Source: Oligoflexus sp. (GTDB taxonomy: Bacteria > Bdellovibrionota_B > Oligoflexia > Oligoflexales > Oligoflexaceae). Taken from it: a stretch of 64,000 nt of DNA. Positions within the stretch are counted from its first letter, which is position 1. The number at the start of each line of letters is the position of its first letter. Below, piece after piece: positions 29,234 to 56,358 of the stretch. The notes under the pieces are model-generated. The model was not told the origin of the DNA, did no database searches, and worked only from the letters and a program-made list of their open reading frames with translations. A program made the position numbers and the translations under genes. Location: positions 1-64,000 of the forward strand of contig JACMPP010000144.1 in the NCBI GenBank assembly GCA_014377445.1, in the 5' to 3' direction.

Positions 29234-29533
29234 TTATGAATCGGCCTTTTTCGAGGCTCGAACAACTTTTTTGAAAGGCGAGCCGGTAGGCATCGGAATT
29301 CCTTCATTTTCCTCCATAATATCGGTAGCTTGATCTACGCTTGCTACCTGCGAGTAGGATGCTTGACGGTTCTCGTCCTGGATCCTTTGATAAACTTCTT
29401 CGCGGTGAACCACGGTGCTTGCACTCGCTTTGATGCCGAGCCTTACTTGTTTACCTTTTATTTGCATCACAACGATCTTGATATCGTCGCCGATGGCGAT
29501 CCCTTCTCCCACTTTTCTAGTTAATACAAGCAC
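29234..29533 (-). CDS. csrA: Carbon storage/translation regulator CsrA with extended C-terminus
   Basis: The first 60 residues are a standard Csr[21 protein letters not shown], then [19 protein letters not shown] with the RNA-contacting Arg at residue 44. The total is 99 residues, about 35 longer than common CsrA proteins, with a Ser/Gln and Glu-rich tail. CsrA dimers bind ANGGA sites near start codons and, in FliW-containing bacteria, repress flagellin translation. The start is GTG with GGGAGGG eight bases away. It lies between flgL and fliW, as in many FliW-dependent species. Confidence 0.94.
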
Positions 29534-54638: not shown

Positions 54639-55190
54639 ATGGCAAAGTCGAAAGATAACCTAGTATGGATCGACATGGAAATGTCTGGCCTCAACCCTGA
54701 TACGGATGTGGTTCTAGAGGTCGCGCTGATTCTGACCAATAGTGCTCTTGAGATCGTCGCCGAGGGCCCTGACCTCATCGTCCATCAAGATGCATCGCTT
54801 TTTGAGAAAATGGACAATTGGAATCAGGAACACCACACGAAATCGGGGCTATGGAAATCCGTACTCGATTCCAAGGTGAGCCTGGAAGAAGTTGAGGATC
54901 AGGTGATGGCATTTCTTGAAGCCAATCTCTTCGCCAAGACTTCGCCTCTTTGCGGCAATTCGATCGCACAAGATCGCCTCTTTTTGCGCAAATATATGCC
55001 CCGGGTCGATCAGTTTCTGCATTACCGGATGATCGACGTAAGCACGATTAAAGAGCTGGTGAAACGATGGTATCCCAAAGGGACTTCCTCGCCATCCAAG
55101 CTGAGTGCGCACCGTGCCCTCGATGACATTCGAGAAAGCATCACCGAGCTGAAATTCTATCAGGACAATTATTTCATTAAATTATCTTAA
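54639..55190 (+). CDS. orn: Oligoribonuclease
   Basis: A 183-residue DEDDh exonuclease that degrades 2-5-nt RNAs, including pGpG from c-di-GMP turnover, which fits the PilZ protein encoded nearby. WIDMEMSGLNPDTDVVLEVA gives D and E of motif I; SAHRALDDIRES gives H and D of motif III. The length is normal. TGGAGG precedes the ATG. Confidence 0.95.
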   Translation: MAKSKDNLVWIDMEMSGLNPDTDVVLEVALILTNSALEIVAEGPDLIVHQDASLFEKMDNWNQEHHTKSGLWKSVLDSKVSLEEVEDQVMAFLEANLFAKTSPLCGNSIAQDRLFLRKYMPRVDQFLHYRMIDVSTIKELVKRWYPKGTSSPSKLSAHRALDDIRESITELKFYQDNYFIKLS

Positions 55191-55257: not shown

Positions 55258-55390
55258 AAGGTCCCCAAATAAGACTTCTTCCGCTGGGTTTTCTTTAATG
55301 CTAAAATGTTTGCAGGACCCTCTGGCCAGCGGATATGCCGTGGTATTAAGGTCCCATAAGCTAAAGGCTTAGGAAAGGAGGTGGTGCTTG

Positions 55391-55435
55391 GTGTGTTCTA
55401 ATTGCACTAGTAGCACGGAGGTGATCGTCTGTTAA
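55391..55435 (+). CDS. Possible 14-residue Cys-rich peptide
   Basis: A GTG start, nine bases after the end of GGAGG in AAAGGAGGTG, opens MCSNCTSSTEVIVC, then TAA. Cysteines at 2, 5 and 14 include a C-x2-C pair. It lies inside the candidate structured transcript; a second perfect ribosome-like site, GGAGGTGATC, overlaps its own codons near the end. Whether it is translated is unknown. I know no family with this sequence. Confidence 0.35.
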   Translation: MCSNCTSSTEVIVC

Positions 55436-55456
55436 GACGACACTTTCACTACTAAA

Positions 55457-55502
55457 ACCGGCTCCGCCCCAATCTAAAGGCTGGGAGCCGGTCCCATTTT
55501 TC
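55457..55502. terminator. Bidirectional terminator between orphan RNA and speE
   Basis: ACCGGCTCC (55457-55465) pairs with GGAGCCGGT (55484-55492), a perfect 9-bp stem. ATTTTTC follows on the plus strand and TTTTAGT on the minus strand. It serves the convergent orphan transcript and speE, whose stop lies at the end of this element. Confidence 0.8.
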
Positions 55503-56358
55503 AAAACTTCAATTTGGCTTTGAAGAAATTCGGTAGAGCAAATACGCCCGTCATCAGATCTTCATTCAAATACTTCAAATTTGTAGCCTCAATCTTTTTC
55601 AATCGAGCTTTATCAAATTTTTTGACATCGATCGCATTCTTCGATGCCATCGTCCAGGACCATGTGCCCTTCGGGTAGGTCGGGATACTGGCGATGTAAG
55701 GATAAACGTGAGCAAATCCAGCCGAAACGTTTTTGTGAATGCGTTGGAGGACTGCCGGCGGATGCCAGAGGCCTTCCGATTGGCAAACCATGAGTCCGTC
55801 TGATTTCAAAGCCTTTGCAACACTATTATAAAAAGCGCCGCTGAAGAGACCTTCGCCAGGACCAATGGGATCGGTAGAGTCGACGACAACCAGGTCGAGC
55901 GAATTCGCTTCATGCTCAGCCATGTATGCGATGCCATCGCCAATATTAAGCTTCACGCGAGGGTCGCGGATGCCTTTGGCGATCTCCGGAAAATATTTTT
56001 CGCAGACTTCGACAACCATTCCATCGATTTCACAAAGAACGATTTCTTTGATCTCCGGGTGTTTGAGAAGTTCGCGAACAGTTCCGCCGTCGCCGCCACC
56101 GATAACCACAACGCGCTCGGGCTTCTTGTGATTCAATGCGGGAACGTGAGAAATAAGTTCGTGATAAACGAATTCATCTTTATCGGTCGTCATGACCAGA
56201 CCATCGAGCAACAGCATGCGGCCGTAGGCTTCGGTTTCAATAACGTCAACGGTTTGAAAGTCCGACTTGTCACGGAACAAAACTTCTTTAGCAGCAAGTC
56301 CGAGCTTCACACCGTCTTCATAATCTTCGTAGTACCAAAGTTGCATAACCAGTTTCAT
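55501..56358 (-). CDS. speE: Spermidine synthase (polyamine aminopropyltransferase)
   Basis: A 285-residue enzyme transferring aminopropyl from decarboxylated SAM to putrescine. GGGDGGTVREL near residue 85 binds dcSAM; DSTDPIGPGEGLF holds the catalytic aspartate. The start is uncertain: the first ATG abuts AGGA, while the ATG four codons later is at the usual LWYYED start. It is followed in the opposite direction by the orphan RNA. No speD is in the window. Confidence 0.93.
   Translation of the reverse strand: MKLVMQLWYYEDYEDGVKLGLAAKEVLFRDKSDFQTVDVIETEAYGRMLLLDGLVMTTDKDEFVYHELISHVPALNHKKPERVVVIGGGDGGTVRELLKHPEIKEIVLCEIDGMVVEVCEKYFPEIAKGIRDPRVKLNIGDGIAYMAEHEANSLDLVVVDSTDPIGPGEGLFSGAFYNSVAKALKSDGLMVCQSEGLWHPPAVLQRIHKNVSAGFAHVYPYIASIPTYPKGTWSWTMASKNAIDVKKFDKARLKKIEATNLKYLNEDLMTGVFALPNFFKAKLKF

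Follow-up and report, generated by a model that had tools for sequence, protein, structure and literature searches.

What is encoded between orn and speE in the window, the 64,000-nucleotide stretch of Oligoflexus sp. DNA analysed here? A preliminary description of the sequence had noticed there a short, bounded plus-strand unit with two motifs complementary to the 16S rRNA 3' tail and a tiny ORF with Cys codons. It had proposed that this unit is a small-protein mRNA, a ribosome-binding or CsrA-titrating RNA, or a dual-function RNA. The features that proved relevant are collected in Table 1.

The locus between orn and speE

The orn gene is on the same strand as the RNA gene and ends at 55190. 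The speE gene (55501-56358, minus strand) is convergent to it and, as the preliminary description had said, no same-strand gene is found 3' of the RNA. The two SD-like motifs, the GTG ORF and the hairpin over the second motif are likewise all where they had been placed. The first motif, SD1 (AAAGGAGGTG, plus strand), precedes the ORF. The second (GGAGGTGATC, 55417-55426, also plus strand) lies inside the ORF MCSNCTSSTEVIVC and is covered by the hairpin. The reading of both as exact complements of the 16S 3' tail stands as far as the motifs and their coordinates are concerned, the match itself having been judged solely against the universal tail GGAUCACCUCCUU, which may not be the tail of this genome. 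The window segment folds more stably than 200 of 200 shuffled sequences (z -4.3), and ARAGORN and Rfam find no tRNA or tmRNA in it. The window also carries csrA (29378-29530, minus strand), about 26 kb from the RNA gene.

An element resembling TGnTARAAT is seen by eye 5' of the first helix in most Oligoflexales members of the family described below; a generic promoter scan of the window segment detected no -35/-10 pair. If the transcription start of the Bdellovibrio bacteriovorus HD100 member is taken as a guide, transcription in the window would begin at G55315, with the first base of hairpin P0. At the other end, the strong terminator noted earlier corresponds to a terminator-like hairpin (55458-55491) followed, a few bases after the stem, by five T residues at 55497-55501. 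An own promoter and terminator recur across the family and, together with its conservation, support the view of a bounded and independent plus-strand transcript unit.

Table 1. Features of the RNA gene, in coordinates of the window.
Feature	Position	Strand	Basis
Extended -10 element TGCTAAAAT, TGC-TAAAAT	55299-55307	+	Sequence; 7 nt 5' of the first helix
Predicted transcript, about 187 nt	55315-55501	+	5' end modelled on the HD100 TSS, 3' end set by the terminator
P0, 5' hairpin, GGACC (55315-55319) with GGTCC (55350-55354)	55315-55354	+	MFE fold
P1 hairpin TAAGC-TAAAG-GCTTA, directly 5' of SD1	55357-55371	+	Compensatory changes, arm-swap test
SD1 AAAGGAGGTG	55374-55383	+	Core GGAGGTG(G/A)TGC conserved across the family
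P2 helix over the start region, GTGCT (55384-55388) with AGCAC (55412-55416)	55384-55416	+	Arm-swap covariation, fold
Mini-ORF MCSNCTSSTEVIVC, GTG start at 55391, TAA stop at 55433-55435	55391-55435	+	Frame kept in the family
SD2 core GGAGGT (codons GAG GTG), 10 nt before the stop	55417-55422	+	Conserved position and spacing
P3 hairpin masking SD2, stop codon in loop or upper stem	55417-55449	+	Fold models, arm-swap test
Terminator hairpin and T run	55458-55501	+	Sequence, terminator prediction

Distribution of the family and its relation to APsRNA2

Blastn searches of relatives, a check that had been recommended, show that the segment is kept widely and not by chance. Matches at E<=1 occur in 31 of 38 relatives and in 20 of 23 genera, with E values of 1e-69 to 1e-6 for the best relatives, those weaker than about 1e-3 being mostly noise. 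The 20 loci taken from this set all have a common core. A strict pattern (SD1, 15-45 nt, SD2, 10 nt, TAA/TAG) matches 25 of the 58 genomes of the class and its reversed control matches none. In the window's phylum, a sequence-only model finds the RNA in 27 of 56 genomes, with no copy in families f4, f6, f11, f12 and f13 of this sample; copies went undetected in several Oligoflexales families and in one other family of the class. Among 144 Bdellovibrionota genomes the model matches 44, with exactly one copy in each, the matches with E above about 1e-4 being the weakest and uncertain. Genome G005 is the only one seen with two copies. Its second copy (C18:72453-72509; L040, L066) has the ORF MTSFDNSSMEVRTS and is located upstream of a PntA-like gene.

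A pattern scan of 84,980 species genomes gave, among the matches listed, the same architecture in Bdellovibrionales, including B. bacteriovorus, and look-alikes in Chloroflexota (Tepidiforma, Dehalococcoidia and Thermomicrobiales). Many matches from groups other than Bdellovibrionota and Chloroflexota fall within protein genes or have no ORF and were set aside. The collection of distinct members that have the ORF comes to at least 77. A model built without Chloroflexota sequences assigns 13-31 bits to the Chloroflexota loci, most of them above the false pattern matches (at most 17 bits), for loci that were preselected by the pattern and whose SD motifs are under constraint from 16S rRNA. For these two reasons, common descent of the members from both groups is plausible, not proven.

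The family reaches a transcript that is already known. APsRNA2 of B. bacteriovorus HD100 is an attack-phase sRNA of 134 nt, mapped by RNA-seq to 535,188-535,321 of the plus strand (Karunker et al. 2013; PMC3627812). It was reported to have no homologs outside B. bacteriovorus and to reach 8,869 RPKM in the attack phase and 204 RPKM in the growth phase (PMC3627812), values that put the non-replicating attack phase 43-fold above the growth phase. A family member of genome G139, at 535210-535270 of the plus strand with SD1 at 535210, falls within the published APsRNA2 coordinates. G139 is in the HD100 coordinate frame: its c-di-GMP riboswitch falls within the coordinates published for merRNA, on the correct strand. 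The HD100 locus is recovered by the same pattern and model as the rest of the family. Transcription of APsRNA2, as published, starts exactly with the first nucleotide of P1, 7 nt downstream of a -10-like TATCAT, and the transcript ends near its own terminator. On these grounds the window RNA is homologous to APsRNA2. The latter was published as an attack-phase sRNA only, its ORF, two SDs and family not being described (PMC3627812). Table 2 of that paper lists further attack-phase RNAs, such as APsRNA5 (388,842 RPKM).

The open-access literature holds no description of the family beyond the 2013 paper and names APsRNA2 in no other paper. Rfam 15 gives no gathering-score match for the window or its relatives, and none at E<=10 for a 341-base segment. 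Judged by its conservation, the window RNA is a stand-alone gene that belongs to a new RNA family with a published member.

RNA structure, mini-ORF and the second SD

The architecture shared by the family is, from 5' to 3', P1, SD1, P2 over the start codon, an ORF of 14-19 codons, SD2 within P3 and the terminator. RNAalifold finds no pair in a two-lineage MAFFT alignment because P2 and P3 shift register. An alignment-free arm-swap test was therefore used instead, which asks whether the helix arms of a member pair better with each other than with those of other members. P1, P2 and P3 all covary by this test, a positive outcome for the covariation check that had been suggested. Three pairs of P1 show compensatory changes (in 4-6 of 19 sequences), and the helix has p<0.0002 in Oligoflexales and Bdellovibrionales; it failed the test in Chloroflexota. 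P2, to which the fold adds inner pairs across the start codon, has p<0.0002 in all three lineages (Oligoflexales, Bdellovibrionales and Chloroflexota). For P3, p<0.001 is obtained in Oligoflexales and Bdellovibrionales and the result in Chloroflexota is marginal. The P0 region gives no arm-swap signal, and a control pairing of upstream sequence shows no effect; helices equivalent to P0, with altered sequence, are seen by eye in relatives.

Fold models predict SD2 to be paired downstream in nearly all Oligoflexales and most Bdellovibrionales. P3 is perfect in L261, L269 and L271, where CACCUCC faces SD2. SD1 is also masked in many Oligoflexales folds, paired with an anti-SD motif of the terminator region, a result that is partly artefactual since these folds ended 65 nt after the stop and cut some terminators. 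Terminator hairpins of several Oligoflexales families (L006, L012, L014, L016-L019) carry CACCTCCTTTC or close variants; this sequence is a perfect mimic of the 16S tail, complementary to SD1.

The ORF is real in a comparative sense. In all 18 distinct blast-defined members a start codon stands at a workable distance from SD1 and its frame runs uninterrupted to the stop. When the variable stretch is shuffled, such an ORF arises with a mean chance of 0.12 per member, a probability that is too optimistic since the members are phylogenetically related. Indels between SD1 and SD2 preserve the frame. Members found only by the model keep both the ORF and the 10-nt spacing from SD2 to the stop, also in cases in which SD1 or SD2 has diverged to GGGGGTG. 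The encoded peptides are unusually rich in Ser (23-29% in two lineages), Asp, Thr, Cys, His and Tyr, with few hydrophobic residues. The Cys codons, whose conservation had been proposed as a sign of a peptide, are not conserved and vary even within the window's genus. TAG is usually a rare stop codon. Among the Chloroflexota members collected, with a search pattern that excluded TGA, 30 of 32 end in TAG. A later search gave one TGA member from this group (G272), contradicting the idea that the stop is never UGA.

These properties bear directly on the possibility that the RNA is a small-protein mRNA, whose product would be the peptide of 14-19 residues and whose RNA features would ensure its strong and controlled translation. 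We consider this unlikely. Selection on the peptide would agree with a frame kept everywhere, but pN/pS is about 1 in Oligoflexales (1.03) and Bdellovibrionales (1.11), and neither third-position excess nor codon periodicity is found in any length class, Chloroflexota included. The residues that are conserved overlap SD2 and the P2 arm; in one Chloroflexota member SD2 stands in another frame and GGLTS replaces the Glu-Val pair. What speaks for a peptide is that in Chloroflexota pN/pS is about 0.5-0.64 and Dehalococcoidia peptides resemble one another (MDxHSRS...EVTSS), and that the last residue is often Ser. As far as substitutions can tell, the frame and the stop are conserved and the peptide sequence is not, the weaker constraint in Chloroflexota leaving some doubt there.

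Nearly every member has SD2 in frame, as the codons GAG GTG for Glu-Val. The stop codon begins 10 nt after GGAGGT across the family, the spacing being 7 or 9 in three Chloroflexota members. Depending on the species, the stop is found in the loop or in the stem of P3, at a constant distance from SD2, so this spacing does not simply follow from the hairpin. An ATG, GTG or TTG is present 4-11 nt after SD2 in 1 of 77 members, when 14.1 of 74 would be expected from shuffling the bases between SD2 and the stop and after the stop. The site therefore looks selected against initiation, suggesting that SD2 is not an initiation site. For a ribosome with the stop in its A site, the distance from GGAGG to the P-site codon is 8 nt, which is the usual initiation spacing. 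It is because of this geometry that holding of the ribosome at the stop is proposed.

Proposed mode of action and alternatives

Our preferred hypothesis, on which our confidence is evenly balanced, is that the RNA is a translation-operated regulatory RNA in which the act of translating, not the peptide, is the function. We infer translation, holding at the stop and the switch from sequence comparison and geometry. A 30S subunit would bind the exposed, near-perfect SD1, open P2 and reach the start codon. The ribosome would then read the 14-19 codons and come to the stop, its anti-SD facing SD2 in an open P3, and SD2 would probably hold the terminating ribosome there. This would create a switch between a state with P3 closed, in the absence of a ribosome, and a state with a ribosome present and the anti-SD-like 3' strand of P3 free. 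The freed strand, or the anti-SD motif of the terminator in some families, could close SD1 or pair elsewhere. A constrained fold with a ribosome parked at the stop, computed on sequences with some terminators cut off, did not pair SD1 downstream and so gives no support to closure of SD1 by the freed strand. More tentatively, and with doubts outweighing our confidence, we put forward that the family stands for a deeply conserved class of stand-alone RNAs, ribosome-operated switches whose active state is an RNA with a ribosome held at the stop by a second, non-initiating SD, and which work with neither a conserved peptide nor a downstream gene. Such a switch may sense, for example, free or intact 30S subunits, or termination and recycling.

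A trans-acting antisense RNA, whose anti-SD-like strands (in the 3' arm of P3 and the terminator loop) or SD stretch would pair with other RNAs and in which translation would only gate access to them, is also improbable in our estimate. The perfect CACCUCC strand of P3 in the three loci named above and the presence of CACCUCCUUUC in terminators of several Oligoflexales families lend themselves to such a role. However, a generic anti-SD seed confers no target specificity, and pairing within the RNA already accounts for the anti-SD-like strands. The SD1 complement is longer than in shuffled sequences in Oligoflexales (7.3 vs 5.2 nt), an excess that is little in Bdellovibrionales and nil in Chloroflexota.

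Two near-perfect SDs with a short ORF, the second without a start codon, could instead sequester 30S subunits in non-growing cells, and the rise of APsRNA2 in the HD100 attack phase is in line with such ribosome storage. Its abundance is not. The attack-phase level of merRNA is 2,038,479 RPKM, stated to be twice that of tmRNA (PMC3627812); by these figures APsRNA2 reaches about 1% of the tmRNA level, an amount that would not store ribosomes stoichiometrically. Masking of SD2 in P3, as predicted by the folds, would also counteract sequestration, and we regard a role as a sponge as quite unlikely. The ribosome-binding RNA of the preliminary description thus fits best of its three options when understood as a translated RNA, not as a bulk ribosome sponge.

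The gene orn is upstream of the RNA in most Oligoflexales. Downstream are found, in this order of bacteria, an M14 peptidase (several cases), a DUF2459 protein, an aminopeptidase, an antiporter or FabF. The downstream gene codes for a CheA-like protein in Bdellovibrio and for a BirA-like protein in Dehalococcoidia (recognised from sequence motifs); in the window's genus it is missing or points towards the RNA. Since the neighbours are lineage-specific, the RNA gene appears to be independent of them, and their turnover argues for action in trans or on the RNA itself. The same observations make it very doubtful that the RNA is a leader-peptide attenuator of the downstream gene that has decayed in the window. 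A same-strand gene does follow in many relatives (M14 peptidase, BirA, CheA-like), but which gene it is depends on the lineage, the RNA's own terminator intervenes and the HD100 transcript ends near it. Titration of CsrA by the several GGA motifs is hardly credible and fails as a general function. The csrA gene is present in the window and, phylum-wide, in 47 of 56 genomes, but CsrA is missing from 9 of 10 Chloroflexota carriers of the RNA. Within the phylum the occurrence of one does not follow that of the other, CsrA being present both with and without the RNA: no CsrA is detected in the RNA carrier G008, and many genomes with CsrA are without the RNA. SD1 and SD2 account for the GGA motifs, and conservation of the ORF frame would be needless.

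The translation-operated RNA that we favour can be compared with several known systems. Dual-function sRNAs (SgrS/SgrT, Vibrio VcdRP, RNAIII) are also stand-alone small RNAs holding a translated ORF, but their peptides are functional and conserved in sequence, whereas the window family keeps the frame only. Attenuators of the tnaC/ermC type share with it a short ORF whose translation would remodel hairpins and a hairpin-masked SD opened by the ribosome; unlike them, the family has no conserved downstream gene and its SD2 serves no start codon. Of each of these two kinds the family lacks what defines it: it resembles a leader peptide with no gene to go with it, or a dual-function RNA lacking a functional peptide. 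Translated minigenes, among them the lambda bar type and axe-txe (PMC8708949), are alike in having an SD, a very short ORF and a stop, and in that translation acts and not the peptide. Minigenes have a few codons, however, and the family has 14-19, with its own promoter and terminator, a second SD before the stop, covarying structure and conservation across orders. Translational coupling sites have an SD just 5' of a stop codon as well, within the end of the upstream ORF, but in the family no second start codon or ORF follows and start codons are depleted after SD2.

The window RNA would add a new RNA family to a large and poorly studied group that includes predatory bacteria, one with a published but unexplained transcript in the model predator HD100. 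If the proposed mechanism is true, an SD would be used here at termination, not at initiation, and the cell would read the state of its ribosomes by means of a mini-ORF.
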